Positions 59,032 through 64,000 of a stretch of 64,000 nucleotides of DNA are shown here, piece by piece. The notes under the pieces are model-generated. The model saw only the letters and a program-made list of their open reading frames with translations, did no database searches and was not told the DNA's origin. The DNA is from Pontixanthobacter sp. CEM42 (lineage in GTDB: Bacteria > Pseudomonadota > Alphaproteobacteria > Sphingomonadales > Sphingomonadaceae): NCBI RefSeq assembly GCF_017812015.1, contig NZ_JADQTN010000002.1:806001-870000 (forward strand), given 5' to 3'. The position numbers and the translations under genes were made by a program. How positions within the stretch are numbered: the stretch's first letter is position 1; the number at the start of each line of letters is the position of its first letter.

Positions 59032-59052
59032 GTCCGGTGGAAACGAATATTG

Positions 59053-59090
59053 GCGGCGGGCGAGGGGGACCTTGCCCGCCGCTTTTGTTT
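59053..59090 (+). terminator. Rho-independent terminator after the TBDR
   Basis: GCGGCGGGC (59053-59061) pairs with GCCCGCCGC (59074-59082), followed by TTTTGTTTT. It lies between the TBDR and the TPR-sulfotransferase gene 19 bases later, so the latter is expressed by read-through or from an unseen promoter. Confidence 0.85.
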
Positions 59091-59108
59091 TCTGCACTGA
59101 AGAATGTG

Positions 59109-61112
59109 ATGGCCACCGAAACAGAAACCCAAGCTGATCCCCAAGCTGAACGGCACGCAGAGCAATTGAAGCAGGCGCAGCAGCATCTGCAATCTGGCAA
59201 TTTTGCTGCGGGTCTAGCTGCGGCTGAGGCGATGCTGGCTGATGCTCCAGCCAATAGCCCGGTCGATACTGATGTGCTCTATCTAGCGGCGGTTGCCGGA
59301 CGATATCTGAAACGCTTCGATGTGGCTGAAGAATATCTGGCGCAGCTTCACAGAGAGTCACCCGAATATGGCCGCGCGTGGCAAGAGGCCGGCCATCTGG
59401 AAAGGGCGCAGGGTAACGCCGATAAAGCGCTCGCAGCTTTCCAGCGCGCGACCCAGTTCAATCCTGCACTCGAGGCAAGTTGGCGAGCTCAGGCTGATAT
59501 TCTTGCCGCCAATGGTCAATCGGCTGATGCGGCAAATGCCACTGCGCAAGCCGACCGGCTGAAGACCATGCCGCGTGAATTGCTCGCAGCGACCAATCAC
59601 TTACACGAAGGCCGTTTGCTGCGCGCGGAGGAATTCTGCCGCCACTTCCTGCGTCAAGAGCCCAAACATACTGAAGGGATGCGGTTGCTCGCACAGATCG
59701 GGATTAAGTTGGGCATTCTCAACGATGCCGAGTTTCTCCTCGAATGCGCCCGGACATTTGATCCAGACAACATCCAGATACGGCTAGACTACATTGATGC
59801 TCTACGTCGCCGCCAGAAGTTCGTGCAGGCTAGGGACGAGGCAGAGGCGCTTTACGCGCTCGGTCCCGACAATCCGCTGTTCCAGTCGCACCTCGCCATC
59901 GAGAGTATGCAAACCGGTGAATATGACCGTGCGTTCGAGTTATTCGACGCGGTACTGGCGAAAATTCCTAATGATCCGGCAACGCTGACATCGCGAGGTC
60001 ATGCTCTGAAAACGGTTGGTAAGCAGGCTGATGCAGTAGAATCCTACCAAAGCGCGTTCGCAGCCAAACCCGATCATGGCGATGCTTATTACGCGCTCGC
60101 CAATCTCAAGACTTACTCGTTCTCGGACGACGAGATTGCCGCAATGCGCGCGCAAACTGACCGCACCGACCTAGCTTTCATGGACTGGGTCCATCTCTCG
60201 TTTGCGCTTGGCAAAGCCTATGAAGATCGCGCTGATTACGAGCAGTCTTTCCAATTCTATCAGCAAGGTAACGAACTAAAGCGCCGTCAGACGCGCTATA
60301 ATGCTGACGATATGCAGTCGGAACTGCACAAGCAGGCGGAGCATTGCACCGCCGAACTATTCGCCAAGCATAAGGGGGCTGGCCACGCAGCGCCTGGTCC
60401 GATTTTTATTCTTGGGCTGCCGCGGGCAGGCTCAACCCTGCTTGAGCAGATTCTTGCCTCGCACAGCCAAGTCGACGGCACGCTGGAACTGCCCAACATT
60501 CTCGCACTGGCGCACCGGCTGCGCGGGCGTAAAGCAGTTGAATCCCTCTATCCGCAAATCCTGCATGATCTGTCGGCCGAACAGCTTGCAAAGATGGGTG
60601 AGGACTTCATCGAGAATACCCGCATCCACCGCGAAGACGCGCCGTTCTTCATCGACAAGATGCCCAACAATTTCCGGCATATCGGGCTGATCAAACTGAT
60701 TCTGCCTAACGCCAAGATTATCGACGCACGGCGCGATCCGATGGATTGCTGTTTCTCCGGCTTCAAGCAGCTCTTCGCTGAAGGTCAGGAATTCACCTAT
60801 GGCTTGGAAGAAGTCGGGCGGTATTATTCCGACTATGTCGAACTGATGGACCATTGGGACAAAGTGCTGCCGGGCGCAGTTTTACGCGTGCAGCATGAAG
60901 ATGTGCTCGATGATCTGGAGGGGCAGGTCCATCGGATGCTCGATTTTCTCGGCCTCCCGTTCGAGCAGGCCTGTCTCGATTTCCATAAGAGCAAGCGCGC
61001 TGTGCGAACCGCCAGCTCGGAACAGGTGCGGCAGCCGATCAACCGATCGGGACAGGGCGCTTGGCAGCCTTATGAGCCGTGGCTGGGTGCGCTGAAAGCT
61101 GCTTTGAAATAG
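59109..61112 (+). CDS. TPR-repeat sulfotransferase
   Basis: The protein is 667 residues from the ATG at 59109 (ATGGCCACCGAAAC); the open frame from 59037 would run through the terminator and is not used. The first 370 residues are TPR repeats (QHLQSGNFAAGLAAAEAML, YLKRFDVAEEYLAQLHRESP, FELFDAVLAKIPNDPATLTSRG). The C-terminal third is a Sulfotransfer_3 domain: PIFILGLPRAGSTLLEQIL is the 5'-PAPS loop, and NAKIIDARRDPMDCCFSGFKQ the 3'-PAPS element. It transfers sulfate from PAPS to an unknown acceptor. Homologous TPR-sulfotransferases often follow TBDRs in sphingomonads and Caulobacter, which hints at modification of a ligand, peptide or cell-surface part linked to the receptor. Confidence 0.9.
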   Translation: MATETETQADPQAERHAEQLKQAQQHLQSGNFAAGLAAAEAMLADAPANSPVDTDVLYLAAVAGRYLKRFDVAEEYLAQLHRESPEYGRAWQEAGHLERAQGNADKALAAFQRATQFNPALEASWRAQADILAANGQSADAANATAQADRLKTMPRELLAATNHLHEGRLLRAEEFCRHFLRQEPKHTEGMRLLAQIGIKLGILNDAEFLLECARTFDPDNIQIRLDYIDALRRRQKFVQARDEAEALYALGPDNPLFQSHLAIESMQTGEYDRAFELFDAVLAKIPNDPATLTSRGHALKTVGKQADAVESYQSAFAAKPDHGDAYYALANLKTYSFSDDEIAAMRAQTDRTDLAFMDWVHLSFALGKAYEDRADYEQSFQFYQQGNELKRRQTRYNADDMQSELHKQAEHCTAELFAKHKGAGHAAPGPIFILGLPRAGSTLLEQILASHSQVDGTLELPNILALAHRLRGRKAVESLYPQILHDLSAEQLAKMGEDFIENTRIHREDAPFFIDKMPNNFRHIGLIKLILPNAKIIDARRDPMDCCFSGFKQLFAEGQEFTYGLEEVGRYYSDYVELMDHWDKVLPGAVLRVQHEDVLDDLEGQVHRMLDFLGLPFEQACLDFHKSKRAVRTASSEQVRQPINRSGQGAWQPYEPWLGALKAALK

Positions 61113-61372: not shown

Positions 61373-62956
61373 ATGAATAAACATGATCCCATCACGCGTT
61401 TCACACCGGCAGAACGGCATCTGATTGATAGCCTTAATGGCAGCCTTAACCGGGGAACGGCACTCGCAGAATTGAAGAAACTGCTTCAAGTTGCCGTCCA
61501 GATCGAACTCGCAACGATCCCGATCTACCTCTACACATATTATTCGATCAACCGCACCGTGCACAGCGGTGAGAATATGCGTCCGAGCGATGTGTTTGCC
61601 AACAAAACCGGCGGTATGATCATGAGCGTGGCTGTTGAAGAGATGCTGCACATGTCGCTCTCCGCCAACATTCTTTACTCGCTCGGCGAAATGCCGAAAA
61701 TGTACCAGCTGGCACCGGCCAATTATCCCACTGTTCTGCCTGCGCATCACCAAACCGATAAGTGGCAGCCCGAAGGTCCCGATGGATCGCACGATGTGGC
61801 CATCCCGCTAGGCAAGCTGGACTACAACCAGCTCTGGCATTTCCTTCAGATCGAATATCCCGAAACGATGGATGCCGTGCCGGAAAACCATGATTGGAAG
61901 ACCATCGGTCAGGTTTATTCCTATGTTCGCTGCATCATCGCGACCAAATGGATCGATGACGATGATTTCCGCAAAGGTCCGGTGGAGCATCAGATTCAGA
62001 GCTTCAATTATTCGCCCAACAATACCGACACGGTGCACACGAAGGGCAAGTTTGATCCTTGGACACCGGCACCCGAAACGGCCGACCCAGATGCCAAGCC
62101 GGTTGAGGGTGAAAGTGCCGCCGCCGGTGCCGTCTATTCCAACGAAGACGACAGTCATGCAGGGGCTACAGAGCTGGTGACGATCCAAGGCAAGGAAGAT
62201 GCCTATATCGCCATCGATACGGTATGCGATCAGGGTGAGGGTTACGCCCAGCCCCATATGCATGATTTGCCGACGGATGATCCGTCAAAGCACGAATTGT
62301 CACACTATTATAAGTTCCTGACAATTCAGGCTCAGTTCGCAGAATACAAGGCCCATATGGAATCGGGCGGGCTGCATGAGAAGTTGCCCAAATATCCTGC
62401 ACCACCTGCGGCGGTTGAGCCTACCATTGGTTCTGGTGAACTGGCTGAAGTGGTTATCGACTATCCGGAAAATCCGGTCACCCACGATTATCCCGAAGAG
62501 CTGCAGCCGATTTCTGATTTCTGTAACGGCGTGTTCCAGTACATGCTGGTTCTCACCGAGACGCTGTATCTGGTGCCGCCGCAAAGTCAGCGGCTGTTCT
62601 TCAATGAAGGCATGCACCGTTCGATGATCTGGGTGCTCGACAAGCTGATTAAGACCATGCGCGACATTCCGATCAATGACGGCAAACACAAAGGTAAATT
62701 CCTTGCGGCCACGTTTGAAAACATCAATCTCGGCCATCGCGAAGGATCTTTCGACACATTGAAGGTGCTTGGCAGCAAGGCCATTGCGGCTGCTGAGGCG
62801 TTGATTGTTTCCGACCCATCAGTCGATCAGCATGCGCAAAGCGTCATCTATTACGTTGAACAGGCGCTGTCGGCGACGGATGCTCAAGGGGCGCCGCAAC
62901 ATCTGCCCGATGTGAAAGCCTTCTGGAACGGCGACAAACCTGCGCCGCATTGCTGA
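61373..62956 (+). CDS. Ferritin-like domain protein (VioB/PF12902-like), in MNIO cassette
   Basis: The protein is 527 residues from the ATG at 61373, preceded by GGAGGAGAGGG; the frame is open from a TTG at 61325. Residues 30-110 form a ferritin-like helical pair: LLQVAVQIELATIPIYLYTYY (Glu45) and MSVAVEEMLHMSLSANILYSLGE (Glu89/90, His93), a carboxylate-bridged metal pattern like that of the ferritin-like module of VioB and RebD. A middle acidic region and a helical C-terminus (QSQRLFFNEGMHRSMIWVLDKLIKT, EGSFDTLKVLGSKAIAAAEALI) follow. No signal peptide is seen. It lies 35 bases ahead of the Cys-rich gene and would be an oxidative or iron-supplying partner in its maturation. Confidence 0.82.
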   Translation: MNKHDPITRFTPAERHLIDSLNGSLNRGTALAELKKLLQVAVQIELATIPIYLYTYYSINRTVHSGENMRPSDVFANKTGGMIMSVAVEEMLHMSLSANILYSLGEMPKMYQLAPANYPTVLPAHHQTDKWQPEGPDGSHDVAIPLGKLDYNQLWHFLQIEYPETMDAVPENHDWKTIGQVYSYVRCIIATKWIDDDDFRKGPVEHQIQSFNYSPNNTDTVHTKGKFDPWTPAPETADPDAKPVEGESAAAGAVYSNEDDSHAGATELVTIQGKEDAYIAIDTVCDQGEGYAQPHMHDLPTDDPSKHELSHYYKFLTIQAQFAEYKAHMESGGLHEKLPKYPAPPAAVEPTIGSGELAEVVIDYPENPVTHDYPEELQPISDFCNGVFQYMLVLTETLYLVPPQSQRLFFNEGMHRSMIWVLDKLIKTMRDIPINDGKHKGKFLAATFENINLGHREGSFDTLKVLGSKAIAAAEALIVSDPSVDQHAQSVIYYVEQALSATDAQGAPQHLPDVKAFWNGDKPAPHC

Positions 62957-62991
62957 GCCACATACTGAATTGAGAAGAGGGAGTATTTCAC

Positions 62992-63687
62992 ATGACTCAA
63001 ACTCGTAGAGGTCGTGAACATCTGAAGCAGAAGCCCGAGAGTGGACCAGGCGAGCCGGTTCCTACTCCGTATCCCTATGCGAAAGCTCCGGCATTTGTGA
63101 AGACTGTCGGGACGCAGCCAGAAGGCCTGCCGCTGCATAGCTGCATGGGATTGAATAGTTGCAAAGGCTCTGACCGGTTCGGGCTGGAGGGACATTTCGA
63201 TCCGGTGACCGGCGCGCATGTGCAGAATGATTGTGCGGGCCAGGGCTATTGCGCGACTACGCCTGCGCATACCTGCCATGTGCAGAATAGCTGTAAGAAC
63301 CAAGGCGGCTGCGGGCTATATGGGACATCGAAAGAGCTGGAGAATCCGGCGCATAATGACTGCCGGTCGCTTGGTTCCTGCGCGGTTCCGATCAATGCCG
63401 AACGCTTTAGCACCGATGGTGCAAATCGCGGTAAGAGCGTATGGCAACGCGCACGCAAAGTCTTTGAAGAGACGGTTTGGCCGCAAACCCGTGCAGAGCT
63501 ACTGAACAAGCAATCAATGGGCACAGTCGACACCAACTGCGAGTTACCCAAAGATCTGGGTAATGCGCCTTCTGAGTTTGAAGGCAAGGGTCCGGCCTAT
63601 CAGTGGATATCCAACAACAACGTCAACCGCAGCAATATGACTGCGTGTGGTTCGAGTGGTACGAGTGGGGCTGGCGGTTGTTCCTAA
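62992..63687 (+). CDS. Cysteine-rich CX5C-repeat protein, probable MNIO substrate
   Basis: The 231-residue protein has twelve cysteines at 51, 57, 81, 87, 95, 101, 107, 124, 130, 183, 219 and 230. Nine of these form CX5C units (CMGLNSC, CAGQGYC, CHVQNSCKNQGGC, CRSLGSC), with recurrent N-(D/S)-C and G-(G/S)-C environments. It has a basic N-terminus (TQTRRGREHLKQK) without a normal signal peptide, a Pro-rich part and a C-terminal (G/S)-rich CGSSGTSGAGGCS. GAGGGAG precedes the ATG. It lies 35 bases after the ferritin-like gene and 21 bases before a DUF692/MNIO gene. Repeated NDC/NSC elements recall precursors of MNIO-modified metallophore peptides, although this one is long. I take it as a likely precursor or metal-binding protein. 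Confidence 0.82.
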   Translation: MTQTRRGREHLKQKPESGPGEPVPTPYPYAKAPAFVKTVGTQPEGLPLHSCMGLNSCKGSDRFGLEGHFDPVTGAHVQNDCAGQGYCATTPAHTCHVQNSCKNQGGCGLYGTSKELENPAHNDCRSLGSCAVPINAERFSTDGANRGKSVWQRARKVFEETVWPQTRAELLNKQSMGTVDTNCELPKDLGNAPSEFEGKGPAYQWISNNNVNRSNMTACGSSGTSGAGGCS

Positions 63688-63708
63688 AGCTGCAATAAAG
63701 TCCATCTA

Positions 63709-64000
63709 ATGGATCAGAAAGTCGCGACACACATGCTGCAGTCCTTGCCCAAGCCCGGCTTGGGTTTGGGGCTGCGCAATGTGCATTTCGATCATATTCT
63801 GTCCACTTGGCCGGAGGTTGACTGGTTCGAGGCGATTTCCGAGAATTTCATGGATTCAGGCGGCCGCCCCCGGCATGTTCTGGACCAAGTTGCTGAGCGT
63901 TATCCAGTGGCACTGCACGGTGTGTCGATGTCTATCGGCAGCACTGATCCGCTGAACTTTAACTATCTCACCAAGCTTAAAGCTCTGGCAGACGATACAC
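63709..64000 (+). CDS. DUF692/MNIO-family multinuclear iron oxygenase, N-terminal part (cut by window end)
   Basis: The frame is open from the ATG at 63709 through 97 codons to the edge. It reads [38 protein letters not shown], then [21 protein letters not shown]. The pattern of GLGLR, a P-x-V-D-W-F-E segment, SENFM and LHGVSxSIG is the N-terminal signature of DUF692, the MNIO family of MbnB, TglH, ChrH and bufferin enzymes. These TIM-barrel enzymes use two or three irons and O2 to modify cysteines or other residues of precursor peptides. Its gene follows the Cys-rich gene by 21 bases. The rest of the enzyme and any partner protein lie to the right of the window. Confidence 0.88.

Follow-up and report, generated by a model that had tools for sequence, protein, structure and literature searches.

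Among the described systems closest to the one reported here are the bufferins, which buffer copper and, like related MNIO products, in most cases have a Sec signal peptide; a band near 305 nm is reported for bufferins (Antoine et al. 2025, PMC12452194). The Buf2 group (BufA2, NCBIfam model NF050166; 'Buf_6/12Cys') has a core C-x-G-x-N-x-C-K with CX5C spacing, ranges from 51 to 367 residues as described in PMC12452194, and is encoded in the order precursor-MNIO-partner with a BufB-type MNIO and a DUF2063 (PME-type 1) partner. The same article describes the adjamnio-I putative precursors, which are signal-less, 122-293 residues long and contain 8-21 Cys, and reports PME-type 2 partners, which lack the DUF2063 signature, as the main kind for precursors without a signal (PMC12452194). 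Captophorins are thiooxazole metallophores that combine an MNIO and a DUF2063 protein with a Cys-rich substrate (Gadgil et al. 2026, PMC13097082) and, according to that source, every characterised MNIO-PME1 case installs 5-thiooxazole. Here, we examine a 64,000-nucleotide stretch of the Pontixanthobacter sp. CEM42 genome (hereafter, the window), at the end of which lie the genes for a ferritin-like protein (FER), a Cys-rich protein (CYS) and an MNIO enzyme, followed just beyond the window by the gene for a DUF2063 partner.

We propose that CYS is, judged by its sequence, a Buf2-like protein rather than a novel class of Cys protein, that it is likely the substrate of the MNIO and, more tentatively, that the cassette produces a cytosolic, MNIO-modified bufferin-like protein that may act as a metal-binding partner of FER. 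For all this likeness, no export signal is seen on CYS, there is a link to a diiron-type ferritin-like protein, and the partner is of PME-type 1, contrary to the published trend for signal-less precursors. An earlier sequence-only reading of the window had set the long precursor apart from known MNIO pathways, said to use short leader-bearing peptides, a view that did not survive the finding of a Buf2-like core and the long MNIO precursors already reported (PMC12452194). The same reading had called the pairing of a ferritin-like protein with an MNIO uncharacterised, and here it held up: among the literature matches listed there is no description of a pairing of MNIO or DUF692 with ferritin, those for MNIO and ferritin being, by title, nanoparticle, cancer or clinical work. 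The word ferritin has no occurrence in the main text of PMC12452194, and in the matched passages of PMC8224329, found with DUF692 and ferritin, there is 'Bacterioferritin-associated ferredoxin' in a table and ferritin in a reference title only.

Results

The window corresponds to positions 806001-870000 of contig C2 of a 3.08-Mb, two-contig genome (G000), and positions on locus L003 equal window positions minus 60000. FER (527 residues, 61373..62956, forward strand) matches PF12902 at 118.4 bits (cut-off 22.3). CYS (231 residues with 12 Cys, a putative MNIO substrate) follows at 62992..63687 on the same strand, and then the MNIO gene, of which 63709..64000 is present before the window end cuts it and which runs on, also on the forward strand, to G000:C2:870665. 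The sequence-only reading had allowed for an MNIO frame broken past the window; the frame is intact, encodes 318 residues (L003:3709-4665) and has its first 292 bases inside the window. The DUF2063 gene lies at L003:4662-5474 (G000:C2:870662-871474), its GTG start overlapping the MNIO stop by four bases, and the next long frame past it is on the opposite strand. The gap between FER and CYS is 35 bases (62957..62991, forward strand) and carries the purine-rich GAGAAGAGGGAG upstream of the CYS ATG; that between CYS and MNIO, read from the sequence, is 21 bases (63688-63708). Because these gaps are short and all the genes lie on the same strand, FER, CYS, MNIO and DUF2063 likely form one operon.

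The Cys residues of CYS stand at positions 51, 57, 81, 87, 95, 101, 107, 124, 130, 183, 219 and 230 and make five CX5C steps, as the sequence-only reading had said; 20,000 shuffles of the protein gave a mean of 0.56 such steps, and two of them reached five. No Pfam model matches CYS at E 0.1, and beyond a weak match to the NCBIfam BufA2 model (20.6 bits, E 3.8e-4, under the cut-off of 60) no model of either collection fits at this threshold. With hhalign, the CYS core aligned to 13 Buf2 proteins at Prob 96.4 (P 1.2e-9, 34 columns). Two of these 13 rows (L055 and L065) fall under the BufA2 cut-off, and with only the 11 proteins over it the result was weaker and still clear (Prob 93.4, P 2.5e-7, 33 columns). 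A relation to Buf1 was rejected, five Buf1 proteins giving an hhalign Prob of 1.4. The nearest single protein seen is that of L065 (BLASTP E 2e-9, 37% over 79 columns). This protein (L065:1441-1761) is Buf2-like and repeat-rich, with a hydrophobic N-terminus, and its 1.5-kb flanks contain no MNIO match.

We aligned CYS from 23 of the 39 distinct loci described below, leaving aside L017, which is partial, and 15 further Bacteroidota loci. Eight Cys (51, 57, 87, 95, 101, 107, 124 and 130) are invariant in all 23 proteins, and Cys81 is kept in 21, being absent only from two actinobacterial rows. Also invariant are H49, M52, H93 and H96, and H-x-CMGLNSC occurs in every row. There are 8-14 Cys per row, and the unfused full-length proteins have 157-241 residues. 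The C-terminal part contains a helix predicted at 150-176 in the AlphaFold model and a CG-SG-C tail; the model has a mean pLDDT of 47.3, with low confidence in the Cys region. The peak of N-terminal hydropathy (over 12 residues, within the first 45) is at most 1.07 in 23/23 CYS and at least 1.70 in 13/13 Buf2 proteins, in agreement with the earlier claim that CYS has no usual signal. Thus, by this test, which is one of hydropathy and not SignalP, no recognisable export signal was seen in the 23 CYS, although for the four fused rows, which are domains, it shows only that no hydrophobic segment lies in the domain's first 45 residues.

The MNIO matches PF05114 at 343.8 bits (cut-off 25) and the NCBIfam BufB model NF050167 at 341.1 bits, over its cut-off of 310, and all 16 H/D/E columns that are at least 95% conserved across 61 rows are present in it. 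The three window genes are therefore of the families, and in the close order, that had first been read from the sequence. Of the 61 MNIO rows placed in a midpoint-rooted tree, the 35 from the cassette are separated from the rest by a single branch with UFBoot 100 and SH-aLRT 97, and L055 and L062 are drawn beside them. These 35 rows represent 35 of the 39 cassette loci, the omitted ones being L006 (a near-copy of the window), L031 (split), L041 (cut) and L017 (no MNIO); the other 26 come from BufA2-model loci and from the own genome's second MNIO; one gene is present twice among them (L004, L046), and the rows L053 and L075 are identical to each other. In L031, two overlapping open frames take the place of a single cassette MNIO frame (L031:6491-7464), possibly through a sequencing error. 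The partner matches PF09836 (DUF2063) at 66.9 bits (cut-off 27.2), and 20/20 partners scanned match DUF2063 at E 0.01, which makes them PME-type 1. The Pontixanthobacter genome also has an ordinary BufA2-BufB-DUF2063 operon (G000:C2:34028-36080, or L004:6029-8081, minus strand), with a divergent DUF2282 gene and, behind the operon, DoxX-, sigma- and NrsF-like genes (the last three by eye).

A scan of genome contigs for CYS gave 37 loci which, with the window and G259, make 39 distinct loci; L007 and L008 are the genomes of L009 and L012 and were dropped, and L005 is the window. A conserved neighbourhood had been named as a test of the original proposal, and such a neighbourhood exists: in searches with phmmer and the window proteins as queries, 36 of the 39 loci have the complete set of genes, always on one strand, and the remaining three (L017, L021 and L041) are cut by contig ends. 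The loci belong to four phyla, Pseudomonadota (including Ghiorsea), Cyanobacteriota (Spirulina), Bacteroidota and Actinomycetota. The order FER-CYS-MNIO-DUF2063 is seen in 30 loci, a single open frame holds both FER and CYS in four (L013, L014, L018 and L019, with CYS C-terminal), CYS-MNIO-DUF2063-FER occurs in two, and three are cut. In uncut loci outside the two actinobacteria, FER and CYS are thus direct neighbours, sometimes in one open frame. In addition, G331 encodes a divergent PF12902 protein whose C-terminal tail is Cys-rich; behind its gene come an MNIO match and a gene for a DUF2063 protein. Placed on the tree, the fused label needs three changes, and a single origin is also possible (bootstrap 1-3); in this tree the L082 row is a cut MNIO with 36% of the columns.

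The cassette is rare, being found in 4 of 298 genomes of the family sample and in at least 2 of 398 phylum genomes (E <=1e-8), the own genome being counted in both; at most 8 candidates per genome were scored for the phylum count, so some may be missed. No fifth conserved gene was seen among 20 of the 84 listed flanking genes, scanned in Pfam at E 1e-5, and the only family shared among these 20 is that of AraC regulators, in two Bacteroidota loci.

FER had been described as VioB-like. This stands at the level of the PF12902 segment, through which alone VioB is related to FER, and fails at the level of the enzyme: a VioB-type enzyme was rejected, the NCBIfam VioB model TIGR04492 giving 15.2 bits against a cut-off of 1250. 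In FERs from 18 chosen loci, E161, E289, E308 and H311 are kept in all, and E45, E89, E90 and H93 in 17. The exception, L018, is due to a start set too far in, its frame holding IKLEMATIP and EEMLH upstream. Ferritin-like proteins usually have the diiron pattern E, ExxH, E, ExxH, and E45, E90xxH93, E289 and E308xxH311 of FER appear to match this four-helix ligand pattern. The closest solved structure is 3hl1 (CC_0557 of Caulobacter; phmmer E 4.5e-4), which is also the sole match under E 0.001 in Foldseek with the model of a fused relative (E 1.8e-4). It shares the motifs EL-TIP, EMLH, IEYPE and DQGEG with FER, which, unlike 3hl1, is larger, at 527 residues, and is tied to CYS and MNIO. In two samples, PF12902 genes without a CYS or MNIO match within 1.5 kb were found in 4/6 and 10/14 PF12902 genomes, so the domain must have other work as well. 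A different metal-binding tail is seen at L078:229-2229, where a PF12902 domain forms one protein with a 4Fe-4S domain (Fer4_19) and with CDGSH domains.

An NCBIfam search found a haem protein (NF040572/NF040571, 'FMP-type'; here FMP) near several cassettes. With our own four-sequence model, FMP lies near the cassette in 7/39 loci at 200 bits or more (three of the seven not being rows of the model), and eleven Flavobacterium loci show an FMP fragment cut at the far end of the locus (27-37 bits). In the family sample, FMP is over the cut-off in 4/4 cassette genomes vs 4/294 others (Fisher 2.2e-7), a genome-level figure inflated by kinship; counted by genus it is 3/3 vs 4/93. Partial, weaker matches are commoner (45/298 family genomes at E 1e-3). 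The link is not explained by PF12902 alone, because only 1 of 10 cassette-free PF12902 genomes passes the FMP model.

In the own genome, the FMP gene stands directly behind a gene for an L-amino-acid oxidase (LAAO)-like protein (L115:3899-5860; PDB 2jae E 3.1e-29; PF01593), the pair lying outside the window at G000:C2:752898-755958 (L115:3899-6959). LAAO of this type (E <=1e-60) occurs in 3/298 family genomes, all of them cassette carriers and two of one genus, which gives 3/4 cassette genomes vs 0/294 others (Fisher 9.2e-7). In 15 of the 39 loci, all Flavobacterium, a different FAD oxidase-like gene precedes FER (PDB 7x7i E 4e-151), as at L022:2430-4421, with no Pfam match at E 1e-5. Elsewhere, PF12902 genes stand beside a GMC oxidoreductase (L117) or a weak LodA_N match just under the cut-off (L123), and PF12902 genes are described as neighbours of fungal lodA genes (PMC4417212). 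PF12902 proteins may generally accompany oxidases that make hydrogen peroxide (H2O2).

Two further roles were considered and rejected. For mobile carriage, CYS was not found in any plasmid record at E 1e-8, nor was there a confirmed relative in viral contigs. For anti-phage defence, the four cassette proteins are without a PADLOC match at E 0.001; the own LAAO matches only a desaturase model there, over residues 64-125. Directly upstream of the cassette in the window is a gene (59037-61112) for a TPR protein with a C-terminal sulfotransferase domain (PF13469).

Discussion

How does this cassette relate to what has been described? It shares with the Buf2 systems the precursor core, the BufB-type MNIO, the type of partner and the gene order. 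Unlike Buf2, CYS has no visible signal peptide, has the invariant H49, M52, H93 and H96 and a long C-terminal part with a predicted helix, and has FER upstream or fused to it. Like the adjamnio-I precursors, CYS is signal-less, long and Cys-rich, and its gene lies directly before that of the MNIO; the cassette differs from them in its DUF2063 (type 1) partners, found in 20/20 scanned, although the two were compared by description and may be identical. The captophorins differ from the cassette in that no EGKCG repeat is present in the window CYS and a ferritin-like gene belongs to the cassette. For CYS, a thiooxazole is inferred from the characterised MNIO-PME1 cases, all of which install 5-thiooxazole (PMC13097082).

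In the explanation that we tentatively favour, the four genes would form one cytosolic maturation and action unit. Going by what is known of the families, the DUF2063/RRE partner would present CYS to the BufB-type MNIO, which would oxidise Cys residues in the CX5C motifs; as in bufferins, the most likely products would be 5-thiooxazoles. The modified CYS would remain in the cytosol and there serve FER as a partner domain that either binds metal (copper in the first place, possibly iron) or has a redox function. The pathway may be linked to oxidases or peroxide, with the L-amino-acid oxidase and the FMP-type haem protein taking part.

Several points weigh against this explanation. The alignment of Buf2 with CYS covers only 33-34 columns of a Cys-rich motif, which leaves some chance of convergence. 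In AlphaFold models of the L013 fusion (mean pLDDT 74.8) and of CYS, the Cys region is without a confident fold and no FER-CYS interface is seen. The type 1 partner departs from the trend that PMC12452194 reports for precursors without a signal, and in the two actinobacterial loci the MNIO and DUF2063 genes stand between CYS and FER. As for the proposed oxidase link, the curated FMP model is passed in only 16 of 25 cassette genomes, or 14 of 22 distinct ones (G023/G803 and G016/G806 having the same coordinates, and G496/G808 being the L014 genome), and own-type LAAO in only 7 of the 22 (E 1e-20). FMP and LAAO are often not adjacent to the cassette, the pair in the own genome being ~111 kb away, and the association counts for both are phylogenetically non-independent.

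What else might FER be doing next to CYS? One option is a second tailoring step, with FER as a diiron oxygenase that acts on CYS before or after the MNIO to give a doubly modified peptide, the FER-CYS fusions then being fusions of enzyme and substrate. Enzyme-substrate fusions occur in the borosins, a group of ribosomally synthesised and post-translationally modified peptides. In 36/39 loci (the 30 and the 4 given above, with L017 and L041) FER does lie directly before CYS, either as a separate gene on that strand or within a single frame, CYS is C-terminal in the four fusions as is the Cys-rich tail in G331, the Cys region is predicted to be unfolded, as expected for a substrate, and FER keeps diiron-type ligands. 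We nonetheless consider this option rather unlikely, since PF12902 proteins so often occur away from CYS and MNIO and FER is not adjacent to CYS in the two actinobacterial loci. The Buf2-like core and the BufB-type MNIO would also suit a plain cytosolic buffer, in which a bufferin that has lost its export sequesters copper (or iron), FER is a co-regulated iron/copper store, and LAAO and the haem protein are incidental. Bufferins are described as copper buffers (PMC12452194), and two Caulobacter DUF692 genes are tabulated as up under copper stress in all conditions tested (PMC8224329). Yet the DoxX, sigma-factor and NrsF families of bufferin operons are absent from the 20 of 84 flanking genes scanned in Pfam, and the haem protein is linked to the cassette at the level of the genome and, with smaller numbers, of the genus, so that such a buffer seems to us unlikely.

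It could also be that CYS is not modified at all, the MNIO and DUF2063 proteins acting on FER, or CYS being an ordinary Cys-rich metal protein, as the precursor role of CYS rests on its position and homology. This is very improbable in light of the strongly kept Cys pattern (eight Cys in 23/23 and a ninth in 21/23), the alignment of CYS with known MNIO substrates, and the presence of an MNIO frame after CYS on the same strand in 38/39 loci, L017 being cut right behind CYS. That modified CYS serves FER is, for us, the best of several explanations.

A more specific proposal would have a metal or redox centre of thiooxazole type made from protein in the cytosol, by the MNIO with its partner, for a diiron ferritin-like oxidase. 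Modified CYS would then be no secreted chelator; it would provide, in trans or in cis, the cofactor domain of an enzyme complex working together with an H2O2-forming LAAO and an FMP-type haem protein. We regard this as unlikely; if true, it would be, to our knowledge, the first MNIO product to serve as an enzyme cofactor.

A bufferin-like domain that shows no export signal, retains its maturation enzyme and helper, and is fused or linked to a diiron-type protein suggests that MNIO chemistry is also used inside cells and on proteins. For the question of whether there are protein cofactors made by MNIO enzymes, this cassette offers a gene set that is small and testable, natural fusions included.

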